Position numbers and translations under genes: made by a program. From assembly GCF_963675165.1 (NCBI RefSeq), contig NC_087382.1:7528339-7592338 (forward strand): 64,000 nucleotides of DNA, written 5' to 3'. Position 1 is the first letter of the stretch. Every line of letters starts with the position of its first letter. Of this stretch, positions 19,981-57,480 are shown in pieces. A model generated the notes under the pieces. The model was not told the DNA's origin, did no database searches, and saw only the letters and a list, made by a program, of their open reading frames with translations. Source of the stretch: Halichondria panicea. Taxonomy: Eukaryota > Porifera > Demospongiae > Suberitida > Halichondriidae.

Positions 19981-21117
19981 CACGATATTTGTTTTTTGTA
20001 CTTGTGACCTTTTACCAACTTTTAGGTGAAAGCTGTGCATGGGCACAAGAGCTAGCTAACAATCAGATGAAGGCTCAGACAAGACACAGAGACTCTTGAA
20101 GCTACAAGCACGCCTACAGCAGGTCAGAGCAACTCAGATGGAGACCTTCTGAGCCTGAGATCACACAGGCACGCCTGCAGGAGGTAACAGCAGCTTACTT
20201 GCCATGTTTTACTTACAAGTCTTGTGTTTTTTGATAATAAACCTGCTAGCTCGACAGGACAACACAGAGACCAGACACTACGACATCTCAGATGGAGGCA
20301 CCTTTTTACAACATTAACAGGTTAGAGCAGCTTTTACTTGCCAAGAATTGTTCACAGTACATGGTAATACTTGTTTATTTAATGCCTTGTAGACTATAAA
20401 CCGGAGTCCAGCAAGAAACAGTACATTGTGATAATATCTCCTTCCTCCAGTCCTAACCTTCTCCTCCTTATAAGTTTTACAGACACATCTTTCCCTATGT
20501 TGTGTAAAATGTTGGGCCATATTTATTATTGATAACATGATAAACTTTCACTCATAGATATACGTTTCACTATGATTGGATGCAACTTTGGGGTTAGAGC
20601 AGTTCAAGAAGGGCTGCCTTGTTTAATAGATGAACTGGAATCTATCATCCTGTATGCTGATGTTCCTGGGCTGGCTATCACCATTGTAAAGTAGACATGC
20701 AACTGCATGGGCCACATTCATGTGTGCTTTCTTGTACTTGAGTCCAGAAGGAGTTGTTGTGGTAACCTTCATTTTCCAGACTTCCTGTTAGGCTGTCACC
20801 CAGTTCTTTTGCTGTATTAAATGGCTAGCATAGAAATCGTATAACCCATGCAGATGCACAATTCGCGCACGCTCGCCCTAAACATGCTCTGCATGCTTCT
20901 AGTACATGTATATGTGCATAATTATGTACGATAATTCGGTTTTAAGACTCATGATTCTTTACCAACTTCTACGTGATTGTTGGTGCATGCACACAATAAC
21001 CAGGAGCTTTGAGGAGATGGGACACAGAGCTCTTGGCAACATCAGAACGCTTGAAGCAGATCAGAGCAGCTCAGATGAACCATCGTGAGGTCACACAGCC
21101 ACCTGCAACAGCTCACA
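19981..21117. repeat. Spacer with degenerate copies of a ~60-70 bp repeat
   Basis: Related segments containing GACACAGAG, then GAAGC and GAGCAGCTCAGATG-like words occur around 20079-20150, 20255-20300 and 21019-21080. No gene is supported. The last copy runs straight into the truncated end of receptor gene A. Confidence 0.45.
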
Positions 21118-21757
21118 GCATCTGACTCGTCTACTACCTCAAGTAATTCATCATCATTGTTTTCATTGGCTACAAGCTGATACATTTCCCGGCCATTGTT
21201 TGCTCGTCGAAGTCTGGTGTCTGTACGAACAGCTCCTACGCTCCTTATGATGTCCTCCATTTTCAGCCATGTATTGCTCTTCTTGAGTACGAATTGGTAA
21301 AAATGGTAGCAGAGTGTTATTGCAAAGATGATACAGTATATAGCCATCGAAGTATTGGCTAGTGCTGACTGATCTTTCAAGGTATCTTTGACATAGGAGG
21401 TGCCAAATGCTAGAAAAGCAACATTGAGTAGATAGAGAGTTTCGAGGGAATCACAGAATTTGTTTTTGTACAAACGATTATTCAATTTCCATCCGATCAT
21501 CCCAACAGATAGAACCCCGGAACATAATAATAGAGAGGTGTCTGGATCGTGCATGGCAGCTACTACATTATGAGCAATCATTGTCAAAAGAAGCAGTCCC
21601 ACCCAGTAGCGATGTTTGGGAGTGAATGGAGCACGGTACACATCCATGAAACCATCGTATTTCACATTTTTAGTCCACTTCATGAGCTTCCAGTTTGAGC
21701 AGCGAGTAAACCATTGTCCAAAGAAGAGTAGTACAGTGTACAATCCACCAGCAATGA

Positions 21758-21765
21758 GGATTATG
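21758..21765. repeat. Target-site duplication GGATTATG (left) of foldback element 1
   Basis: The same 8 bases recur at 25376-25383. The uninterrupted paralog B carries a single copy at the equivalent site (about 53025). Confidence 0.85.
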
Positions 21766-24700
21766 GGCTATACCTTGGTATAAAAAGTCACAATTCATGA
21801 ATATAATTAAACTTCTATAATGAGGGTATAGGCATCAATATTATGGTTACATTCCATTCCAATAAGTGTACGTACGCATGGAGTGTAACATATAATTATG
21901 TCACTACTGTAACAACTGTAACACCAGTCACCACTGTAACAACTGTAACACATGTCACCACTGTAACAACTGTAACATCTGTCAACATTGTAACAACTGT
22001 AACAATTGTAACAACTGTAACAACTGTAACACTTGTCACCACTGTAACGCTAGTCACCACTGTAACAAGTGTAACATCTGTCAACACTGTAACAACTGTA
22101 ACACATGTCACCAATGCAACACATGTCACCACTGTAACGCTAGTCACCACTGTAACAACTGTAACATCTGTCAACACTGTAACAACTGTAACACATGTCA
22201 CCAATGCAACACATGTCACCACTGTAACAACTGTAACACTAGTCACCACTGTAACACATGTCACCACTGTAACGCTAGTCACCACTGTAACAACTGTAAC
22301 ACTAGTCACAACTGTAACAACTGTAACACTTATCACCACTGTAACAACTGTAACACATGTCACCAATGCAACACATGTCACCACTGTAACGCTAGTCACC
22401 ACTGTAACAACTGTAACACATGTCACCACTGTAACAACTGTAACATCTGTCAGCACTGTAACAATTGTAACAACTGTAACAACTGTAACACCAGTCACCA
22501 CTGTAACAACTGTAACGCTAGTCACCACTGTAACAACTGTAACACTTGTCACCACTGTAACACTAGTCACAAGTGTAACAACTGTAACACTTGTCACCAC
22601 TGTAACAACTGTAACACCAGTCACCACTGTAACAACTGTAACACCAGTCACCACTGTAACAACTGTAACACTTGTCACCACTGTAACACTAGTCACAACT
22701 GTAACAACTGTAACACTTGTCACCACTATAACAACTGTAACACATGTCACCAATGCAACACATGTCACCACTGTAACGCTAGTCACCAATGCAACACACG
22801 TCACCACTGTAACAACTGTAACACCAGCCACCACTGTAACACCAGTCACAACTGTAACAACTGTAGCACTTGTAACACTAGTCACAAATGTAACAACTGT
22901 CAACTGTAACACATGTCACCAATGCAACACATGTCACCACTGTAACAACTGTAACGCTAGTCACCACTGTAACAACTGTAACACTTGTCACCACTGTAAC
23001 ACTAGTAACAACTGTAACAACTGTAACACCAGTCACCACTGTAACAACTGTAACACTTGTCACCACTGTAACACTAGTCACAAGTGTAACAACTGTAACA
23101 CTTGTCACCACTGTAACAACTGTAACACCAGTCACCACTGTAACAACTGTAACACTTGTCACCACTGTAACACTAGTCACAACTGTAACAACTGTAACAC
23201 TTGTCACCACTGTAACAACTGTAACACATGTCACCAATGCAACACATGTCACCACTGTAACGCTAGTCACCAATGCAACACACGTCACCACTGTAACAAC
23301 TGTAACACCAGCCACCACTGTAACACCAGTCACAACTGTAACAACTGTAGCACTTGTAACACTAGTCACAAATGTAACAACTGTCAACTGTAACACATGT
23401 CACCAATGCAACACATGTCACCACTGTAACAACTGTAACACTAGTCACCACTGTAACAACTGTAACATCTGTCACCACTGTAACAACTGTAACACATGTC
23501 ACCAATGCAACACACGTCACTACTGTAACACTTTAGTCTGGCACCACTATAGACTATAAGTACTATAAGAACTAGTGTTACAGTTGTTGCATGTGTTACA
23601 GTGGTGACATGTGTTACAGTGGTGGCATGTTGTTACAGTTGTGACTAGTGTTACAGTTGTTACAGTGGTGACTGGTGTTACAGTTGTTACAGTTGTGACT
23701 AGTGCTACAGTTGTTAGAGTGGTGACTAGCGTTACAGTTGTTACAGTTGTGACAAGTGTTACAGTTGTTACAGTGGTGACTAGCGTTACAGTTGTTACAG
23801 TTGTGACTAGTGTTACAGTTGTTAGAGTGGTGACTAGCGTTACAGTTGTTACAGTTGTGACAAGTGTTACAGTTGTTAGAGTGGTGACTAGCGTTACAGT
23901 TGTTACAGTTGTGACTAGTGTTACAGTTGTTACAGTGGTGACAAGTGTTACAATTGTTACAGTGGTGACTAGTGTTACAGTTGTGACTAGTGTTACAGTT
24001 GTTACAGTGGTGACTAGCGTTACAGTTGTTACAGTTGTGACTAGTGTTACAGTTGTTACAGTGGTGACAAGTGTTACAATTGTTACAGTGGTGACTAGTG
24101 TTACAGTGGTGACAAGTGTTACAGTTGTTACAGTGGTGACAAGTGTTACAGTTGTTACAGTGGTGACTAGGTGACTAGTGTTACAGTTGTTAGAGTGGTG
24201 ACTAGCGTTACAGTTGTTACAGTTGTGACTAGTGTTACAGTTGTTAGAGTGGTGACTAGCGTTACAGTTGTTACAGTTGTGACTAGTGTTACAGTTGTTA
24301 CAGTGGTGACAAGTGTTACAATTGTTACAGTGGTGACTAGTGTTACAGTTGTGACTAGTGTTACAGTTGTTACAGTGGTGACTAGCGTTACAGTTGTTAC
24401 AGTTGTGACTAGTGTTACAGTTGTTACAGTGGTGACAAGTGTTACAATTGTTACAGTGGTGACTAGTGTTATAGTGGTGACAAGTGTTACAGTTGTTACA
24501 GTGGTGACAAGTGTTACAGTTGTTACAGTGGTGACTAGCGTTACAGTTGTTACAGTGGTGACTAGTGTTACAGTTGTTACTTACAGTTGTGACAAGTGTT
24601 ACAGTCGTTACAGTGGTGACATGTGTTACAGTTGTGACTAGTGTTACAGTTGTTACAGTGGTGACAAGTGTTACAATTGTTACAGTGGTGACTAGTGTTA

Positions 24701-25375
24701 CAGTGGTGACAAGTGTTACAGTTGTTACAGTGGTGACTAGCGTTACAGTTGTTACAGTTGTGACAAGTGTACAGTTGTTACAGTAGTCAAGTGTTACAGT
24801 TGTGACATGTGTTACAGTTGTTACAGCTGTGACTAGTGTTACAGTTGTTACAGTAGTCAAGTGTTACAGTTGTTACAGTTGTGACTAGTGTTACAGTGGT
24901 GACAAGTGTTACAGTTGTTACAGTGGTGACTAGCGTTACAGTTGTTACAGTTGTTATAGTGGTGACAAGTGTTACAGTCGTTACAGTTGTGACTAGTGTT
25001 ACAGTTGTTACTGTGGTGACAAGTGTTACAGTTGTTACAGTTGTTACAGTGGTGATAAGTGTTACCAGTTGTTACAGTGGTGACTAGCGTTACAGTGGTG
25101 ACAAGTGTTACAGTTGTTACAGTTGTTACAGTGGTGACTAGCGTTACAGTTGTTACAGTTGTTACAGTGGTGAGTTGTGACTAGCGTTACAGTGGTGACT
25201 GGTGTTACAGTTGTTGCAGTTGTTACAGTGGTGATTGATGTTACATTGGTTACAGTAGTGACATAATTATATGTTACACTTAATTATGTGGAATGGAATG
25301 TAACCATAATATTGATGACATTATAGAGGCTTAATTATATTCATGAATTGTGACTTTTTATACCAAGGTATAGCC
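21766..25375. mobile_element. Foldback element copy 1 (3,610 bp), inserted in receptor gene A
   Basis: Ends are GGCTATACCTTGG and its complement. About 130 bp of unique subterminal sequence at each end, also inverted, lead into two huge opposed arrays: 21896-23530 is made of 9-bp words GTAACAACT, GTAACACTT, GTCACCACT and variants, and 23574-25260 of their reverse complements. A central spacer of about 40 bp (23532-23573) separates the arms. The whole can fold into one hairpin. No transposase is encoded, so it is non-autonomous. Foldback structure with 8-bp target duplications fits P/Galileo-like, hAT-like or Merlin-type mobilisation; the superfamily is undecided. Confidence 0.9.
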
Positions 25376-25383
25376 GGATTATG
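25376..25383. repeat. Target-site duplication GGATTATG (right) of foldback element 1
   Basis: Perfect match to 21758-21765. Confidence 0.85.
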
Positions 25384-28300
25384 GCAGCGACAATAAATCG
25401 AAGATTGTGATCTGAAGTGAAGTATTGCACATTGCCGTCATACAACCAAACAATATCACTTGAATTACTAGGAAAATCCAAGATCTTGGTTGAACCATTT
25501 GGATAATCCAATACCCTGTATTGTAGAGCAGCAATGATAAACCGTAAAAGTTTGGAATAAGAGAGTAGGATGAGTGTGCCTAACGCAGCAACTGGGTTTC
25601 TATTTGAGAGGAGCTTTGCAAATGAGCTAAAGTACTTGCTCAAAATTATTATTACAAACATGAGAAGAAACAGGTAAACTGGGAAGACAAGTTGAAGGAG
25701 CACCTTTGCTTGAGAGTTCATTCCATTGTAAAAACATGTTTCAATACCTAAATCAAGATTCACCCACGATATGAAAACTGTCAAAGCGTTATGAAAAGGT
25801 AAGAAAATCGATTGACTTGCAGCTAGTATATTAGTGTAGCAGATCAGCCCATGGATAGTGCCTGTGGCTATGGTAAAGTTGAAAAGGAGAATAAATGCAA
25901 CTAGTAATATGCCTGCCAGAGCGAACGGAATTAGTAGAAGAAGGTAAATGTTTGAGCACTGTTCGCATCTTGACGTACCCAACACAAGACTGAAATTTGA
26001 TTTACATTCTCCACATAATACCCCACTTCGATTGAAGGCACACTGTCTATCAGGGCTGCTTAGGCTTATGTTGACTGGTCTTTGTACACAATAGTCAAAT
26101 GTACACTTACTAACAACATATCCTGTTCGGTTGGTGGTATTAGTGACTCCTATCCATATATTGCTATTACTTTCCAATGCTATAGTTCCATTTTCCTCAG
26201 AACAGTTTTTTATCTTGTATTCTTGTTGCAAGAATGGATCACAGTCACATTTGCACTCAATTGAGAACGGAATTGGCTTGAGTCCGATGGGGCATGTGCA
26301 GGAGAGAAAAGAGACACTATAAATTTGTTTTGAAATTCCCAAATTGATGCATGGACCCTCGGCATAGAGTTCCACTTGAGCAGAGCTGTCTTGTGAGAAT
26401 ACATTGTATTCTATTTTTGTGCACTGATTGCCAACTTTTTGTTCAGCCTGTCCTTCTTTGAGACGACCAACTCCACTCTCAGTGATGACAGAGCTTCGAA
26501 TTGTAGCATTCACTGGATTTCCAACTTGGTCTACGGCCATAACACTTATTGTGGACTTTTGTCCCTTTCTAACAGAAATGAACTGCGTGGTGGTGTTACA
26601 AACTTGTACTCTAACAGCCTCCGAAGCTATTGATGAAAAAAGCACAGTATTGTTCAAGTACTCAAATCCATTGTCTGATAAAGAGAGTTCGGCTGATACA
26701 TCCATCGTACACCTGTCTAACAGACCTCCGTAAATATCTGCTCCTGACTTGGAAGCTGTGTTGTTAGCCAAAAATGTGTTGCAATAGTTTTTTCTGCTCT
26801 TCAAGCATCCCGACAAATTAAACAATGTCACATCAGCCAAAATCTGTAGAAAATCTATATCAATCCCATATAGACTAAGAGTTTGAATAAAGCATTGACT
26901 TTGTGTCACCTCTCCTGTAGTAGTTATATCATCTCCTCTACATGCACCACTTTCGGTACTGTCAGCTACAAATATCCCCCCTCCATACATCAGAGCTGTG
27001 TTATCGTAAATTTCCAGCTTGACCAGTATTTTACCAAGTTTTAACTCCACTTCTTGTTTCAGAACATATATCTTGGAACTTTGTTGTAGATACATTCCAC
27101 CTCCACTGTTGTTTGCTGAGTTTAACTTGATGTGGACGTATGCGTGAGTAAAAACTTTGATGTTTGAAGCGAGTGCATAAATACCTCCACCGAGTTGAGC
27201 TTCATTTCGATCTATAGTACTCACGGATAGTTCAATTTCCATGAAAATACATGTACACAGGGTGAGCTGATTATTTAATTCACAACCAGTGATAACCTTT
27301 GGATCAAATTCGATTTCACTTGAGTACGCATAAATTCCACCACCATTTTGTGCTGTGTTATAAGAAATCTCTATGGGATAGTAAACAAAGAGTGTGCTCT
27401 CTCTCAGAAACACACCTCCTCCAAAGGTAGCTGTATTGTTAGTAATGATCACTCCTTCTGCATTGATATAGATTTGACTCTGGACTGCTCTGTTGGCTCC
27501 ACCCTGCACACCATGATTGTTACTGAGAGTCGCGGCTCCATTGAACTCCACTCGACTGCTTAAAGCATGAACAGGATTTTTATTGTTGCTAACGTTGTTA
27601 ATTCCTGTAAACAACAGATTAGAACCCACTGCGTAAATGACATCTTCACCCTTTAAATTGTCAGTTATGCTTGTATTATTAAATGTCAAAGTTGAGATAG
27701 CAACAACCATCACTCCACCTTGTTGGGTGGCACTGTTGCTTGTAAACACAGAGTCAGAAATAATCACAGTGCCATTAATAATAAAAATTACTCCACCAAC
27801 TTTGGCACTGTTATTTTTAAGCATGCTTTTGGAGATAGATATATTTCCACTATATATAAAAACCGCTCCACCAACAGTGTTAGTTCCTCCACTCTCGACT
27901 ACAGCTTTATTGTCCGTTATAGTACAATTTAAAATCGATACATTACCCCAGACATTTCCAATCACTCCACCAAAGGCTGCACTGTTGTTTGATAGCTCAC
28001 TATAGGATATCGATAACTCTCCATATAAACCAAACATCACTCCACCTGATAATTTAGCATTATTGTACGCCAGCTTAGAGTTGTGAATGGACACACTACT
28101 TTTGGAGGCGTAAATTGCTGCACCAGCAATACCAGCAATGTTGTTATGTAGCTCACAGTAGTGAATGGACACACTATTTGTGTTGGCATAAACTGCTCCA
28201 CCATAGTAATCAGCAACGTTGTTAAGTAGTTCACAGTTTTTAATGGACACACTACTTGTGACGGTTAAAATTGCTCCACCAATGTCAGCAATGTTGTTTG

Positions 28301-30506
28301 TTAGCTCACAGTTGTAAATAGACATACTGCCTTCGTTGGCATAAATTGCTCCACCAAGTTCAAAAGCGCTATTATCAGTAAATTTGCAAAAACTGATAGT
28401 CATGTGTACAGTAGCCACGTTCACTGCTCCACCAACATAAGCACTGTGGTTTGTTAGCTCACTGTTGTAAATGGAAACACTACCTACGTTGGCGTAAATT
28501 GCTCCACCAATACCAGCACTGTTGTTAAACAGCTCACAATTGTAAATAGACACACTACCTGTGACGGCGTTAATTGCTCCTCCACCACCAAACTGAGCAC
28601 TGTTGTTAAGTAGCTCGCAGTTGTAAATAGACACACTACTAGTGTCCGCGTAAATTGCTCCACCCCCACTGTTAGCAATGTTGTTAAATAGCTTACAGTT
28701 GTAAATGGACAGACTACTTGTGTCGGCATAAATTGCTCCACCAAGATCAGCACTGTTGTTTGTTATTAGCTCACAGTTGTAAATAGACACACTACTATTG
28801 AAGGCGTAAATTGCTCCACCATATTTAGCACTGTTGTTAGGTAGCTCACAGTTGTAAATGTTTGTGTCAGTGTAAATTGCTCCACCAATAAAGTCAGCAC
28901 TGTTGTTTAGTATCTCACATTTGTAAACAGATACACTACCTCCGTCAGCATAAATTGCTCCGCCAATTTCAGCACTGTTGTTTGTTAGCTCACAGTTGTG
29001 TATAGACACACTGCCTACGTCGGCATAATTAATTGCTCCACCAGCTATAGAAGCGCTATTATTTATAAAATCGCAAAAACTGATAGTCACATTTTTAGAG
29101 ACCATGTCCACTGCTCCACCATATGCAGCAGAATTGGAATTGAACCTTGAATCGTTAATAACGGATTGAGTTGATTTAATGTGAACTGCACCACCATCAT
29201 TACTGAAGAAGTTGCTCTTTTCAATGTACACATTATCAGCTTCAACATGCAATGCTCTGTTAGTGCCAGTGTTGCTCACAAAGAGAACTTGTTCGATCAT
29301 CACAGTTACCGTACCAGTGATCAGGAGTGTGCAACTTTCCAACTTCAGCAATTTTAAGTATACCGAGAAACATTCAGTAATTAATACTTTTCCAAAACTG
29401 TACATGTTTAAAATAGTTTCACCACTTTCTCCAGTGAAATGCAAACCTTTGATACTCAATAATTTCTTGATGCTGGATAGATGCATACTACCAGTTTTGT
29501 TAAATTTTATAGTAGAATTTTGGCCTGCAATAAGCACCGTCTTGAAATTACCAACGAAAAGCAATTCATTTAACACGTGATCTCCAGGTAGAAAGTTCAA
29601 GGTGAGGTTGTCTCCACCTGATAACAGGTCTGTTTGAACAAGCTGCTCAAGAGTGGAACAAGTTCCATTTTGATGGCGCTGACACAAGTCGATAGTATTC
29701 ACCGGTACAATGTGATATCGGTTGCCACTGGAGACAGTAGCTATTGACAAGACCACAAACAGCCAGCTGTGCATACTCCCGTGAAAGTGCTAGTAAAAAG
29801 AAAATAATATGCCATGCTACATTTCGTGAAGCATGCAGAAAAATGTTGTAAAAGACATCCAAAATAATGGTTATGCACAATATAGGCAGCTCCATTAAAT
29901 TAACACATATTGATGTTAGCTAGCGAGCACAGTGTTAGACTTACTTATTGTATAAAACTGCACTTTTATATTCCAGGGTTTACATAGACCACAAAAACAT
30001 AATATTATGTCAGTACAGTGAACACAGCGCACAAATCGATACAGCAGTATAGTCTAAGAGTAGAAGTGATATAGAAACTCTTCACAGAACCTTTTATATA
30101 TAATTATAGTATATCTTTGCACCATGACACTAGCTATTAATAACACTGGCCAGTTTGTCCAGAGTAATCTATACATGCATTTCCTTGGTAGTTTAAGATG
30201 TCTATATATATTATACATGTGTACGCTGTTAAAAATGGGTAGAGCTATACAATAGCTTGCACTTTGAGTGCTATGCCACGTCTGTAACTGCTATGTAAGT
30301 GTTATAGAGTAATCTACATGCACTTCCTAGTTTTCAGGGTATTTTAAGTAGATTATATATATATAATTATACATGTACACTGTTAAAATGGGTAGCAGTG
30401 CACCTTGAATGCTATGACAACACTCACCTAATGGTGCTATCATATCAGCACTACAGGTGTGCAATCGTAACAGCTATTATAAGTCTAAATGGCATACGCC
30501 CGCTAT

Positions 30507-30652: not shown

Positions 30653-30945
30653 GAGTGGCTCTGGGACAATCCATGTATCTCACAACTCCCGCGAACACCC
30701 CGGAAATTCGTTGTGTCTATACAATGCATGCATCTTAAAGCGATACTCCCATCACTGAATCACATGCTTTCTGATGGTGAGAATCATTTGAAAATATGGT
30801 CTCAATTGTCATGAAGTAGCTATAGTCGAGGTACACAGAGCGCCTCTTTGAATGCTTGTGTTCCTATATTTATTATGCATGGTGTACCTATGATAAGGTG
30901 AGTAGTTGCTATAGTTGTGTTTATATATCAGCAGAGCTGCACCCA

Positions 30946-31108
30946 TTACGGCGATTACACCAAGTGATTACATCCATTACGGCGATTACATACATTATGG
31001 TGATTACGGTGATTACACTCATTACGGTGATTACACTCATGACGGTGATTACACTCATTACGATGATTACATACATTACAGTGATTATACCCATTACGAC
31101 GATTACAC
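30946..31108. repeat. 18-bp minisatellite upstream of the RTK gene
   Basis: About nine imperfect units of GTGATTACACTCATTACG. The word differs from the foldback arrays, but its half-period is also 9 bp. Confidence 0.75.
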
Positions 31109-52156: not shown

Positions 52157-55100
52157 TTATGTACGGGGATCAATTTCTGTGTGTGTAACAACGGGACAAA
52201 GTTTGGATCTTGGAGGGGGGAGGGCTGGTCTGTAGTCGTCTGTGGTGAGGGGGGCTAGTTCATCCATGTAGGATAGTCTCAGCTGATCTGGCCTCGTGGC
52301 TGGTCTGATGATGGGAGGAGTGATATAGCGATCAGGGTCAGCTTCTTCCATCGTTCTATCAGTGTAAGGGGGGTACTCGAGGTCTCTTTGCTCATAATCA
52401 TCTACTGCTTCAAGTAATTCATCTTCATCGCTTTCATTGGAGACTTGATGATGCATTTCCAGGCCTTTATTAGCTCGTTGGAGTCTCTTACCTGCAAGCA
52501 CAACTCCTAAATTCCTTACGATGTTTTCCACCTTCAGCCATGTATTGCTTTTCTTGAGAACAAATTGGTAGAAATGGTAGGAGAGCGTTATCACAAATAT
52601 GATAAATGATATAGCCATCGAAATATTGGCTAGTGCTGATTGATCTTTTTTTGTTTCGTTGATATAGGAGGAGCCCATTGCTAGAATAGTAATATTGAGT
52701 AGATAGAGAGTTTCGAGAGAATCACAGAATGTATATTTATAAATACGAACATTTAATAGTTTCCAGCTGATCAGTCCAACTGATAGAATCCCACATGATA
52801 AAATAGGGAGAGAATTGTCCAAAGCCATGGCAGCTACTAGATTATGAACAATAAGAGCCAAAAGGAGCAGTCCTACCCAGTAGCGATGTTTGGGAGTGAA
52901 TGCAGCATGGAACGCATCCATGAAGCCAATGTATTTTGTGTTCTTGGTCCATATCATAACTTTTGAACAGCTCGAAAACCATTGTCCAAAGAAGAGCAGT
53001 ACAGTGAACAATCCACCTGCAATTAGGATTATGGCGGCAGCAACAAACCGAGCGATGTGATCAGGAGTAAAATATTTTACATTGCCATCGTACACCCAAA
53101 CTATATCACTTGAATTGTTGGGAAAATCCAACACCTTGGTTGCACCATCAGGATAATCCAAGACCCTGTATTGCAATGCAGCAATGATAAACCATAAGAG
53201 TTTGGAATAAGAGAGTAGGATGAGTGTGCCTAAGGCAGCAACTGGGTTCCTGTTGGAGAGGAGCTTTGCAAATGAGTTAAAGTACTTGCTCAAGATGATT
53301 ATTAAGAAGAGGAGAAGAAACAGGTAAGCTGGGAAGACAAGTTGAAGGAGCACTTTTGCTTGAGAGTCCATTCCGTCATAAAAGCATGTCTCAATACCTA
53401 AGTCAAGATTCACCCATGATATGAAAACTGTCAAAGCGTTCTGAAAAGGTATGAAAATCGACTGATTTGCAGCTAATATATTAGTGTAGAAGATCAGCCC
53501 ATGGATAGTACCAGTTGCTATGGTAAAGTTGAAAAAAAGAATAAATGCAACTAGTAATATGCCTGACAGGGCAAACGGAAATATCAGGAGAAGGTAAATG
53601 TTTGAGCATAGTTCACACCTTGACGTACCTAACACAAGACTAAGTCCTGGTTCACATTCTCCACACAAGACACCACTTCGATTGTAGGCACACTGTTCAT
53701 CAGGGTTGCTTAGGCTTATATTGACTGGTTTTTGTACACAATAGTCAAATATACAGTTACTAACGACATATCCTGTTCGGTTGGTGGTATTAGTGACTCC
53801 TATCCATATATTGCTATTACTTTCCAATTTTATAGTTCCATTTTCCTCGGAACAGTTTGTTATCTGATATTCTTGTTGCAAGACTGGATCACAGTCACAT
53901 TTGCACTCAATTGAGGACGGAATTGGTTGGAGTCCAATAGGGCATTCACACTTTTGAAAAGAGATGTTTAGAATTTGTCTTGAAATTCCCAAATTGTTGC
54001 ATGGACCATTAGCATAGAGTTCAACTTGAGTAAAGTGGTCTTGTGAGAATACATTGTACTCTAATTCTGTGCACCTATTGCCAACTTTTTGCTCAGCCTG
54101 TCCTTCTTTGAAACGACCAACTCCACTCTCAGTGATAACAGAGCTTCGAATTGTACCATTAACTGGATTTCCAGCTTGGTCTACAGCCATAACACTCACC
54201 GTGAACTTTCGTCCTTTTCTAACAGAAATGGCCTGCTTGGTGGTGTTACAAACTTGTACTCTAACAGCCTCCGAAGCTATTGATGAGAAAAGCACAGTAT
54301 TGTTCAAGTACTCAAATCCATTGCCCGATGAAGAGAATTCGGCTGATACATCCACCGTACATCTGTCCAACAAGCCTCCATAAATATCTGCTCCTGACTG
54401 GAAAGCTGTGTTGTTAGTCAAAAATGTGTTGCGATAAATTTGTTGGCTGCTGGTCAGGCATTTTGAATTATCACGTAATTGGAAATTTTTAGTCAAAGTA
54501 TAAAGAAGATTAGTGTTAAAACCATGCAGATTAAGAGTTTGAATGAAGCATTCTGTTTGCGTCACTTCTCCTACCATAGTTACATTATCTCCTATACATG
54601 CACCACTTTCGGTGCTGTCTGCTACAAATATCCCCCCTCCATACTGAGCGGTGTTATCGAATATTACTAGTTCAACCAGCATTTTACCAAGTTCGAGCTC
54701 CACTTCTTTTTTCAAAATATAAATTTTGGAACTTCGCTGTAGATATATTCCACCTCCACTGTTGTTTGCTGAGTTTGACTTGATGTGGACGTAAGCATGA
54801 GAAAAAACGTCGATGTTTGAAGCGACAGCATAAATACCTCCCCCATTTTGAGCTTCATTTCGATCTATAATACTTTCAGACAATCTAATTTTCATGATAC
54901 TACATGTACACAAGATGAGTGGATTATTAATTTCACAACCAATAGTACCCTGTGGATCAAATCCAATTTCACTTTTGTATGCATAAATTCCACCACCATT
55001 TTGTGCTGTATTGTAAGAAATCTCTATGGGATCGTGTACAAAGAGTGTACTCTCTCTCAGAAACACACCTCCTCCAAAGGTTGCTGTATTGTTAGAAATG

Positions 55101-57133
55101 ACCACTCCTTCTGCATTGATATAGATTTTACTCCGAACTGCTCTGATGGCTCCACCCTGCACACCACGATTGTTACTGAGAGTTGTGGGTCCATTGAACT
55201 CCACTCGACTGCTTAGAGCATATACAGGATTTTTATTATTGCTAATGTTGTTAACTCCCACAAATGCCAGATTAGAATGCACTACGTAAATGACATCTTC
55301 ACCCTCTAAATTGCCCATCATGCTTGTATTAGAAATTCTCAAAGTTGAGATAGCAACTGCAATCACTCCACCTTGTTGGGTCGCACTGTTGCTTGTAAAC
55401 ACGGAGTCAGAAATGATTACATTGCTCTCAAGAGAAACGATCGCTCCGCCACAGTCAGCGCTGTTGTTTATTAACATGCTCTTGGAGAGAGATATATTTC
55501 CACCATGAACTAAAACCGCTCCACCAATACTGGTACTGGTAACAGCCTGTCCACTAGCAGCTACAGCTTTATTTTCCGTTAGATTACAGTTTGAGATAAA
55601 TGCACTACTTTGGGAAATTGTAATCGCTCCACCAAGGGTTGCTTTATTGTTTGTTAGATTGCTACAAGATAATAACAAATCTCCGATGAAAACGAAAATA
55701 ACTCCTCCTGATCTTTTAGCATTGTTGTGTGCTAGCTCACAGTTGGAGATTGAGACACTGCCACCATTGCTATACATTGCTGCTCCATCCTCGGCACTAT
55801 TGTTTGTTAGGTCACAGTTGTAAATGGAAACACTGCCTCTGTTGGCGTAAATTGCTCCACCATCAGTATCAGCACTGTTGTATGTTAGCTGACAGTTGTA
55901 AACGGACACACTGCTATTGTAGGGGTAAATTGCTCCGCCAAATTTGGCAATGTTGTTTGTTAGCTCACAGTTGTGTATAGACATACTGCCAGCGTCGGTA
56001 TAAATTGCTCCACCAAGTTCAGAAGCGCTATTATCCATAAAGTCGCAAAAACTGATAGTAACATTTGCAGAGACCACATCCACTGCTCCACCATATGCAG
56101 CACTGTTGTTTGTTATCTCACAGTTGTAAATGGACATGCTACCTTTGTCGGCGTAAATTGCTCCACCATTAGAGTCAGCACTGTTGTTTAGTATCTCACA
56201 TTTATAAATGGATACACTACCTTTGGAGGCGTAAATTGCTCCACCAATTTGATAAGCGATATTATCCGTAAAGTTGCAAAAACTGATACTCATATTTGCA
56301 GAGACTACCTCCACTGCTCCACCAGTTGTAGTAGCACTGTTTTTAGAAAACTCACAGCCGTAAATTAACACACTACCTGTCTCTGCATAAATTGCTCCAC
56401 CAACAAATCGAGAAGCGCTATTATCTGTAAAGTTGCAAAAACTGATACTCACATTTGCAGAAACCACCTCCACAGCTCCACCCCTTTCAGCAGTATTGGA
56501 ATTAAACCTAGAATCGTTAATAACAATTTGATTTGAGTGAATGTGAACTGCACCACCATTGCTACTAAAGAAGCAGCTCTTTTCGATGTACACATTATCA
56601 GCTTCAATATGTACTGCTCTGTCAGTGCCAGTGTTGTTCACAAAGAGAACTTGTTCAATCGTTATATCTACCGTGCGAGTGATCCGGAGTGTGCAACTTT
56701 CCAACTTCAGCAATTTCAAGTCTACTAAATAGCATTCAGTGATTAACACCTTTTGAAAACTGACCATGCTTGAAATATTTTCATCATTTGCTACATCGAA
56801 ATACAAACCTTCAATAATCAACTTACTGATACTGGATACCTGCAAACTACCAGTTTCGTTAAAATTGATAGTAGCTTTTTGGCCGATAATAAGCACCTCT
56901 TTGAAATTCCCAATCAAAAGCTGTTCATTTAACATGTGATCTCCAGGTAGAAAGCTCAAGATGATATTGTCTCCACCAGATAAGAGGTCTGTTTGAACAA
57001 GCTGCTCAAGAGTGAAACAAGTTCCGTTTCTATAGTCATGACACAAGTCGATACAATTCACCGGTACAATGTAATATTTTTTGCCACTGGAGACAGCAGC
57101 TAGTGACAACACCAGCAACAGCCAGTTGTACAT
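52157..57133 (-). CDS. Beta-helix multi-pass receptor, paralog B (intact, 1658 residues)
   Basis: Single exon from ATG at 57133. Residues 1-17 are a signal peptide ending VSSG. About 180-850 hold many 23-25 residue beta-helix turns (GGAIYA, SVSIYNCEL, NNSA), Pmp-like in motif but heavily glycosylatable. A Cys-rich block lies at about 1070-1175 (CKCDCDP, NRSGVLCGECEPG, CELCSN). About eight or nine hydrophobic helices follow (1176-1535), among them LLQLVFPAYLFLLLFLIIIL and HRYWVGLLLLALIVHNL. The cytoplasmic tail of about 120 residues is rich in Tyr and Pro (EYPPYTD, LRLSYMDEL, ALPPPRS), suggesting signalling-adaptor binding. It is a clear paralog of A on the same strand. The ligand and mechanism are unknown; a pattern- or carbohydrate-binding receptor is a guess. 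Confidence 0.9.
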   Translation of the reverse strand: MYNWLLLVLSLAAVSSGKKYYIVPVNCIDLCHDYRNGTCFTLEQLVQTDLLSGGDNIILSFLPGDHMLNEQLLIGNFKEVLIIGQKATINFNETGSLQVSSISKLIIEGLYFDVANDENISSMVSFQKVLITECYLVDLKLLKLESCTLRITRTVDITIEQVLFVNNTGTDRAVHIEADNVYIEKSCFFSSNGGAVHIHSNQIVINDSRFNSNTAERGGAVEVVSANVSISFCNFTDNSASRFVGGAIYAETGSVLIYGCEFSKNSATTTGGAVEVVSANMSISFCNFTDNIAYQIGGAIYASKGSVSIYKCEILNNSADSNGGAIYADKGSMSIYNCEITNNSAAYGGAVDVVSANVTISFCDFMDNSASELGGAIYTDAGSMSIHNCELTNNIAKFGGAIYPYNSSVSVYNCQLTYNSADTDGGAIYANRGSVSIYNCDLTNNSAEDGAAMYSNGGSVSISNCELAHNNAKRSGGVIFVFIGDLLLSCSNLTNNKATLGGAITISQSSAFISNCNLTENKAVAASGQAVTSTSIGGAVLVHGGNISLSKSMLINNSADCGGAIVSLESNVIISDSVFTSNSATQQGGVIAVAISTLRISNTSMMGNLEGEDVIYVVHSNLAFVGVNNISNNKNPVYALSSRVEFNGPTTLSNNRGVQGGAIRAVRSKIYINAEGVVISNNTATFGGGVFLRESTLFVHDPIEISYNTAQNGGGIYAYKSEIGFDPQGTIGCEINNPLILCTCSIMKIRLSESIIDRNEAQNGGGIYAVASNIDVFSHAYVHIKSNSANNSGGGIYLQRSSKIYILKKEVELELGKMLVELVIFDNTAQYGGGIFVADSTESGACIGDNVTMVGEVTQTECFIQTLNLHGFNTNLLYTLTKNFQLRDNSKCLTSSQQIYRNTFLTNNTAFQSGADIYGGLLDRCTVDVSAEFSSSGNGFEYLNNTVLFSSIASEAVRVQVCNTTKQAISVRKGRKFTVSVMAVDQAGNPVNGTIRSSVITESGVGRFKEGQAEQKVGNRCTELEYNVFSQDHFTQVELYANGPCNNLGISRQILNISFQKCECPIGLQPIPSSIECKCDCDPVLQQEYQITNCSEENGTIKLESNSNIWIGVTNTTNRTGYVVSNCIFDYCVQKPVNISLSNPDEQCAYNRSGVLCGECEPGLSLVLGTSRCELCSNIYLLLIFPFALSGILLVAFILFFNFTIATGTIHGLIFYTNILAANQSIFIPFQNALTVFISWVNLDLGIETCFYDGMDSQAKVLLQLVFPAYLFLLLFLIIILSKYFNSFAKLLSNRNPVAALGTLILLSYSKLLWFIIAALQYRVLDYPDGATKVLDFPNNSSDIVWVYDGNVKYFTPDHIARFVAAAIILIAGGLFTVLLFFGQWFSSCSKVMIWTKNTKYIGFMDAFHAAFTPKHRYWVGLLLLALIVHNLVAAMALDNSLPILSCGILSVGLISWKLLNVRIYKYTFCDSLETLYLLNITILAMGSSYINETKKDQSALANISMAISFIIFVITLSYHFYQFVLKKSNTWLKVENIVRNLGVVLAGKRLQRANKGLEMHHQVSNESDEDELLEAVDDYEQRDLEYPPYTDRTMEEADPDRYITPPIIRPATRPDQLRLSYMDELAPLTTDDYRPALPPPRSKLCPVVTHTEIDPRT

Positions 57134-57480
57134 GTCCTTGTGAAAATGCTAGCAAAAAAGAAAATTTCACCTAACTCATTTGCATATATATCACCCATGC
57201 ACAACACGTCAGGATTATTTTGTGGCACAAGTTATGTGAGTACTACATCTATCCAGTCACAGGGCTCACCATAATTATTCACAAAATCAGAATTTACTTT
57301 GAGACAATCCTAGCTAGCACAACACTAACCTATCAGATACTATTCCAGAACCACGGACACAGTGAACACAGAGCAGAACTCGATATAGCAGTAGCTAGTT
57401 ATGAAGTTAATCCACCGAACCTTAGTATAGCCATGCAGTATGCCTGCAATATAGTTGCTTATATGGCCAGGTAGTGTTGA
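57134..57480 (-). promoter_or_regulatory. Upstream region of paralog B
   Basis: TATA-like GATATATATGC on the minus strand at about 57181-57193 lies some 50 bp before the ATG. The block at 57355-57395 is shared with the region upstream of paralog A. Confidence 0.4.

Follow-up and report, generated by a model that had tools for sequence, protein, structure and literature searches.

A probable non-autonomous foldback transposon family with arms of nine-base words in Halichondria panicea

The 64,000-nucleotide stretch of Halichondria panicea DNA analysed here (contig NC_087382.1, positions 7,528,339 to 7,592,338; hereafter the window) contains, at positions 21766-25375, a 3610-bp element whose two inverted arms are built from tandem nine-base words. 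We consider it quite likely that this element belongs to a family of non-autonomous, cut-and-paste foldback DNA transposons that moves by the mechanism proposed below. Structurally, the element belongs with the foldback elements, such as FB, Tm1, Galileo and Tetris, and it represents a new family of a known kind. That is, it has tandem-repeat inverted arms with a short middle, it occurs as dispersed copies with target duplications and the number of its arm repeats is variable.

The element, GGCTATACC...GGTATAGCC, is bounded by two copies of the octamer GGATTATG (21758-21765 and 25376-25383), which occurs only once in a paralogous empty site described below. The outermost sequences are GGCTATACCTTGG on the left and CCAAGGTATAGCC on the right. 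The 45-bp terminal inverted repeats (21766-21810, + strand, and 25331-25375, - strand) show no difference between left and right, and each contains an interrupted palindrome, TATACC-TT-GGTATA. Inward of these ends there are about 70-90 bp of less similar unique sequence per side (21811-21896, + strand, and 25259-25330, - strand, both with approximate inner borders), followed by the arms. The left arm (21897-23529, + strand) consists of nine-base words with the core GT(A/C)AC, the right arm (23577-25258, - strand) consists of the same words on the opposite strand, and a central spacer of 47 bp (23530-23576) lies between them. The initial annotation, which was made from the sequence alone, had placed the element exactly, and the inverted ends and the 8-bp duplication that it reported as visible are both present.

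That annotation had also proposed a search for more copies with the subterminal sequence. The 131-bp end gave 34 matches in the genome, and the 22-bp end, with up to three mismatches, gave 31 places (none with the reversed control), which are the 28 paired ends of 14 elements and three single ends. The 14 two-ended copies are spread over five contigs, all 28 of their ends start with GG and 11 of the 14 have an exact 8-bp target duplication. At other offsets of the same flanks, 8-bp identity occurs 10 times in 118,496, or about 8e-5 per flank pair. The second copy in the window, L003 (34033-37585, - strand; 3553 bp), has its own duplication, GGAAATCT, as read on the - strand. A 67-bp stretch around the spacer has matches in 13 of the 14 copies (12 at 97-100% and L015 at 92%), and a genome-wide search with this stretch gave no match outside these 13. 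The same number of copies have left halves of 1.3-2.5 kb and right halves of 1.6-2.7 kb; the remaining one, L010, is a 1.1-kb derivative without the spacer. Three copies are without a duplication of their own, namely L005, L006 and L015, the last of which is the most divergent copy (90.8-92.5% identity to the others). The single ends L017-L021 are fragments; L017 adjoins retroelement frames, and L018 is interrupted by what appears to be another small element.

Within the sequences compared, a subset of the genome, four copies could be paired with a paralogous empty site. The empty site of the copy at 21766-25375 is in the window itself (52962-53116); it is 83% identical and has GGATTATG once. 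Copy L009 lies inside a Merlin element, the other copy of which is 99.5% identical to the joined flanks of L009 over 192 of 192 bases. The joined flanks of L010 and L012 match paralogs across the junction at 82% and 89%, respectively, the latter with just 22 bases to the left of the junction. With 14 two-ended copies, 11 of them with exact duplications, and four empty sites, the designation as a foldback transposon holds. It could be argued that the arms are an artefact, since assembly is difficult for inverted arrays that are long and of low complexity. However, the copies have 14 distinct flanks and 11 exact duplications, 13 of them have a common spacer, their words are strictly segregated in every case and empty sites exist, all of which makes an artefact exceedingly improbable. 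The array lengths of single copies may, nonetheless, be wrong.

The description of the arms as GTNAC 9-mers is well supported. GTNAC occurs 98.7 times per kb in the arms versus 3.2 times per kb in the window outside both copies. The spacing of the GT(A/C)AC cores, counted in 13 of the 14 copies (L010, which is without the spacer, was left out), is exactly 9 bp for 1817 of the 2075 steps in the left arms and for 2183 of the steps in the right arms, which number at least 2420. When read inward from either end, the central base of GTNAC is A 2938 times, C 1586 times, T five times and G three times. Each of the 14 copies keeps its words sorted by strand, no copy having more than three misplaced words, and therefore the arms have opposite base skews (GC skews of -0.43 and +0.42 in the window copy). 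Tandem Repeats Finder reports both arms as arrays of 18, 27, 45, 54 or 72 bp, all of which are multiples of nine. The window also contains a separate array with a 9-bp period, at 30941-31107 between the two foldback copies, with the core ATTAC followed by A or G.

The initial annotation viewed the element as a single 3.6-kb hairpin. The inverted word arms and the spacer agree with this view, but the arms are not exact mirrors of each other. In the eight of 14 copies that were tested, the left arm is 90-94% identical to the reverse-complemented right arm, and it is 87-92% identical to a right arm with shuffled words. In each of these eight copies the alignment score of the copy's own arms was above those of all eight word shuffles. 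The match in word order between the arms is, then, real, much of the hairpin complementarity is at the word level and the hairpin is real yet imperfect.

A period of 9 bp is also three codons, and the arms of all 14 copies contain long open frames, the longest of which have 261-707 codons; the arms might then encode a Val-Thr-x repeat protein on a mobile gene. However, two observations argue against coding. The third position of a Val codon is free to vary without effect on the protein, and yet the presumed Val codon ends in A or C in 4524 of 4532 cases; and, in a count that depends on the alignment, 474 of the 1739 gaps between copies have lengths not divisible by three. In addition, a stop-free phase in a 9-bp array is open by default, and the open frames are on both strands and in two phases. 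We have rejected the coding reading because of the restricted codon base, the out-of-frame gaps and the default openness, and we regard it as scarcely credible.

Some of the copies are nearly identical. L012 and L014 have one single-base difference in 3548 and four gaps totalling 350 bp, L005 and L006 have three in 4664 (99.9% identity) and two gaps totalling 81 bp, L011 and L012 have eight in 3808 and one gap of 90 bp, and L011 and L014 have eight in 3458 and four gaps totalling 440 bp. With one base difference in 3548, the family has been mobile recently. In these four closest pairs the arms have gained or lost blocks of 81-440 bp while one to eight single-base differences arose. Among pairs that are more than 95% identical, leaving out L010 and L015, gap lengths are multiples of nine in 1245 of 1739 gaps, a figure that is approximate as the alignment is ambiguous. 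In the eight copies tested, each left arm was compared with those of three or four other copies, to which it is closer (90-99.6%) than to its own reversed right arm (90-94%). The old copy L015 is an exception, with 94% identity to its own reversed right arm versus 90-92% to other left arms. Since left arms are nearer to the left arms of other copies, and since a copy's own arms match better than shuffles, the inverted layout is inherited, with each arm changing on its own.

A collapsed copy was found at C1:15035769-15035788 (L026). It reads CAGAATTG-GGCTATACCAAGGTATAGCC-CAGAATTG, with 20 bp of family ends flanked by exact 8-bp duplications. This footprint can be reproduced by joining the two ends at any of seven equivalent positions, which amounts to a 6-bp microhomology, the loss having occurred within the 6-bp TATACC repeat that is present in both ends. 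In our reading, the footprint records an almost precise deletion at the hairpin base; staggered excision of the P type would leave a similar one. The gapped palindrome pattern occurs at four places in all, and C1:15035769 is the only one with family ends between 8-bp duplications. As candidate footprints, C5:2739397 (L062) and C15:2315459 (L063) were rejected because they are within longer palindromes, and C6:5991567 was rejected because it looks like chance. The longer palindromes at L062 and L063 contain GGCTATAC and are probably other small inverted-repeat elements.

An autonomous copy with the same ends and a transposase would, according to the initial annotation, name the superfamily; no such copy was found in the searches with the ends and the spacer. 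The search was extended to the 17-bp end, which with up to two mismatches gave 59 places versus seven for the reversed control and no autonomous copy. The additional places were compared with transposase matches by coordinate, and four of them were read together with the footprint locus. One place, C12:4486366 (L016:4967), is a lone near-perfect family end without an array; other repeats occur from its position 92 on (40 of the 137 candidates were scored), and no autonomous copy was recovered by way of it.

The genome contains several types of transposase that might move the family, and the counts of domain matches given here for the P, KDZ, Merlin and MULE types are lower bounds. Merlin elements are described as having a terminal 5'-GG and 8-9 bp duplications (PMC8101967). 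The family has the GG in 28 of 28 ends and an 8-bp duplication in 11 of 14 copies, and because of this correspondence we tentatively take Merlin, at somewhat less than even likelihood, as the best candidate for the mover, which is not to assign the family to Merlin. At least 24 DDE_Tnp_IS1595 (Merlin) domain matches are present in the genome, none of them between ends like those of the family; the one near a copy (C1:12633940) is the element into which L009 inserted. Two Merlin copies have GG ends starting GGTTAGGCTGAC and exact 8-bp duplications. The ends at the other five of the seven Merlin loci start GGATCAGGTGTC or GGATCATGACGG, and no exact duplication was found at these five. Loci of four types were read (11 P loci, seven Merlin loci or part-loci, three KDZ loci and four MULE loci), and among the ends that were resolved there only Merlin shares both the GG and the 8-bp duplication with the family, and it shares nothing beyond them.

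The family could also belong to the P superfamily, like Galileo, and be moved by one of the many P-type transposases in the genome, with THAP-type sites in its inverted repeats. The footprint retains part of both ends, and P excisions often do so. There are at least 46 P transposase RNase-H domain matches, several with open frames of 570-683 aa, and the arms of Galileo contain several THAP sites (PMC3688188). However, the 6-bp microhomology fully explains the footprint, the duplications of Galileo are 7 bp (PMC2775673) and, under a strict scan, none of 11 P loci yielded ends with 8-bp duplications. A looser scan gave candidate ends at three of the 11, CATAGATAAACG, CATAGATGAAGG and CATAAGTGGAGG (start CATA); at a fourth locus, L038, there is an exact inverted repeat of 16 bp that starts GGCCCATGCG and is not accompanied by a duplication. 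None of the P candidate ends is like GGCTATACC beyond GG, and we consider a P-type origin quite improbable. As a separate observation, the P-type family at L031 (C1:5065600-5071400) has eight matches with identical scores, five of them with a 570-aa open frame, which suggests recent P activity in this genome.

Two other sources were considered. The hAT superfamily makes 8-bp duplications, but its ends usually start with CA or TA. At least 53 KDZ-domain matches are present, and two KDZ copies are 97.8% identical, suggesting recent activity. However, a reading of three KDZ loci (two of them extended), at which the KDZ ends are not delimited, brought up no matching ends. We find it rather doubtful that hAT, KDZ/Zisupton or an unnamed superfamily with 8-bp duplications moves these elements. 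Mutator, to which most foldback families belong (Tm1 and those of the Phantom type), has at least 31 MULE-domain matches in the genome, some with long open frames. Tm1 has arm repeats of 13-15 bp and duplications of 8-10 bp (PMC3169594), and Tetris was placed in Mutator on its 8-10 bp duplications (PMC4079207). However, whereas Tm1 duplications are mostly 9 bp, 11 of the 14 copies of the present family have one of exactly 8 bp. Four MULE loci were read out of the at least 31 matches, and none shares its ends with the family; a long inverted repeat showed at only one of the four, where the ends are unrelated and a duplication is absent. We regard a Mutator origin as unlikely.

Two of the copies without their own duplication have one in common. 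L006 and L005 are 30.3 kb apart on C4 in the same orientation. The octamers beside L006 are AATTTATG on the outside and ACTATAAT on the inside, those beside L005 are CAAGATTG on the inside and AATTTATG on the outside, and so the outer ends of the whole 39.75-kb unit carry an 8-bp duplication that the individual elements do not. The enclosed 30.3 kb contain diverged internal repeats. Five of their frames were scanned, of which three matched tyrosine phosphatase and one sushi, while one had no match; we infer that the enclosed genes are receptor-type. The outer flanks of the unit are a different tandem gene family. A probe from the left end of the block has its best match at C4:2330649-2331348 (90%), and one from near the right end has its best match at C4:2235310-2235985 (82%; 40 of 62 candidates scored). 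For both probes, all of the scored matches outside the block with at least 75% identity over at least 150 bases are in C4 1.93-2.33 Mb on the opposite strand, and a few shorter matches are elsewhere on C4. A near-identical second copy of the block was not found in this two-probe search, in which the right-end probe was scored for 40 of its 62 candidates. The region C4 1.93-2.33 Mb is a large tandem cluster of tyrosine-phosphatase/sushi-related sequences on one strand, and C4 2.58-2.62 Mb is an inverted 30-kb outlier, 250 kb from the cluster, that is bounded by foldback copies.

This arrangement is most simply explained if one inserted unit had two of the cluster's foldback copies for its ends, and composite transposition (or circle integration) is our best reading of the block. 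The 39.75-kb unit from the C4 cluster would have inserted, inverted, at AATTTATG. Pairs of FB elements are known to mobilise large blocks of DNA. Macrotransposition by paired maize transposons has also been cited (PMC2775673). A plain inversion was rejected because it predicts the outer octamer in reverse complement, CATAAATT, on the inside of the unit, where neither octamer has this sequence. A paralogous origin of the shared octamer was rejected as well: AATTTATG is absent from the two paralogous positions, whose match is confined to the right-hand side of the site. Alternatively, the unit may be a product of recombination: a copy would already have been resident at AATTTATG, and a circle containing one foldback copy plus the receptor block would have integrated into it through homology. 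This predicts the same flanks, and the 99.9% identity of L005 and L006 makes a homologous exchange plausible. However, it needs two rare steps, circle formation and integration, and we regard it as possible but on balance not the likelier course.

Taken together, we propose the following mechanism. A transposase encoded elsewhere, most likely of the Merlin type, would recognise the GG... ends. As the arm repeats of Galileo contain THAP binding sites (PMC3688188), the GT(A/C)AC words are, by analogy, most likely to be secondary transposase sites whose number rose by slippage, and they would act as many weak secondary binding sites. The arrays would grow by slippage or unequal exchange and would persist since extra sites help to recruit the enzyme or to synapse the ends. 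The inverted arms would let the whole element be lost almost precisely by way of short direct repeats in the palindromic ends, and two nearby copies may serve as the ends of one large unit.

Several points weigh against this proposal. Searches with the 131-, 22- and 17-bp ends and with the spacer found no autonomous copy or transposase with the family ends. That is, 28 of the 31 end matches belong to 14 transposase-free copies, the other three are single ends and the spacer occurs only in the family. At the lone end C12:4486366, the 5 kb that were read contain no partner end next to its duplication. Beyond GG, the ends of the three Merlin families are unlike those of the foldback family. L015 has intact ends yet no duplication. 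When gaps are counted as events, they do not always outnumber single-base differences (one versus eight in L011/L012), and a single footprint was found. Finally, composite transposition is deduced from one unit and one shared octamer, and a circle with one copy integrating into a resident copy gives the same structure.

To the initial annotation, the array structure looked undescribed in a sponge-like genome, but arms of short tandem repeats are known in kind. The FB elements of Drosophila melanogaster have long inverted arms of short tandem repeats and non-coding copies, with arm units of 10, 20 and 31 bp and duplications of 9 bp; by this general description they resemble the window family in their short-tandem inverted arms and differ in unit and duplication length. 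The TU elements of sea urchins are foldback elements with tandem units of about 15 bp in their outer arms and 8-bp duplications, and so are similar, again by general description, in both their short tandem outer arms and their duplications. To our knowledge, the 9-bp unit is the shortest in any foldback arm, FB having 10 bp. Tm1 of the nematode Meloidogyne (Mutator/foldback), with its 13-15 bp arm units and mostly 9-bp duplications, also has inverted short-tandem arms with a unit number that varies between arms and copies, short distinct terminal motifs and mostly non-autonomous copies (PMC3169594). It differs from the window family in its units of about 14 bp versus 9 bp, its duplications of mostly 9 bp versus exactly 8 bp, its asymmetric 7-bp motifs versus symmetric GG ends and in being judged inactive, whereas some copies here are near-identical and recent; in addition, one Tm1 copy encodes a MULE transposase (PMC3169594).

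Galileo is similar in its long, internally repetitive inverted repeats, in the independent change of its arm lengths and in having rearranged copies without matching duplications (PMC2775673, PMC3573991), and its arm repeats hold transposase (THAP) binding sites (PMC3688188). The differences are its 7-bp duplications (PMC2775673), the few tandem units of about 210 bp in the D. mojavensis F subfamily (PMC3573991) and the fact that Galileo is P-type, whereas the P-type candidate ends in this genome are unlike the ends of the window family. Tetris of Drosophila virilis is a non-autonomous foldback element with outer tandem domains, 8-10 bp duplications and no autonomous copy found, and it differs in its 220-bp units and a middle domain of variable size (PMC4079207). 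Merlin shares the terminal 5'-GG and the 8-9 bp duplications (PMC8101967) and has copies in this genome, but there is no Merlin transposase between the ends of the window family. By title and abstract, none of the open-access papers listed describes Merlin with kilobase tandem-repeat arms. Likewise, searches on foldback with sponge, on sea urchin TU and on Merlin gave no earlier description by title or abstract in the open-access literature listed, subscription journals and repeat libraries being outside the search.

Why the arms of foldback elements consist of short tandem words has been an open question since the 1980s. The Galileo study provided binding data and called the repeats of other foldback elements untested (PMC3688188). 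In the window family, the nine-base word, its near-perfect phase and the presence of some near-identical copies make array change traceable copy by copy, and such a short word makes binding testable on a tiny probe. It is conceivable, though doubtful, that this is the first Merlin-powered foldback family and, if the host is a sponge, perhaps the first to be described outside bilaterian animals and plants, that its arms are near-pure arrays of 9-bp binding words and that pairs of its copies behave as a composite transposon, which has recently carried a 30-kb block of receptor-type tyrosine-phosphatase/sushi genes to another site in inverted orientation. If true, the family would be a live shuffler of recognition-gene clusters. 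The apparently moved receptor-type block and a broken surface-protein exon link foldback activity to gene-cluster turnover.

The exon in question is at the insertion site in the window. An open frame of 1482 codons with Pfam Chlam_PMP repeats (25341-29789, - strand) is upstream of the insertion; its stop is just inside the right end of the element, which contains its 3'-most 35 bases. The remainder of the host gene resumes to the left of the element (open frame 21042-21767, - strand, which was compared with the paralog). The uninterrupted paralog (52157-57148, - strand) is one open frame of 1663 codons, encoding 1663 aa, and contains the empty site mentioned above. Chlam_PMP-type repeats are present in both the upstream part and the paralog. 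Since open frames of one gene are on both sides of the element, the window copy splits a coding exon of a host surface-protein gene. Both 25341-29789 and 52157-57148 are large, membrane-protein-like single open frames with Chlam_PMP-like repeats, and apparently they represent a host gene family with internal repeats.

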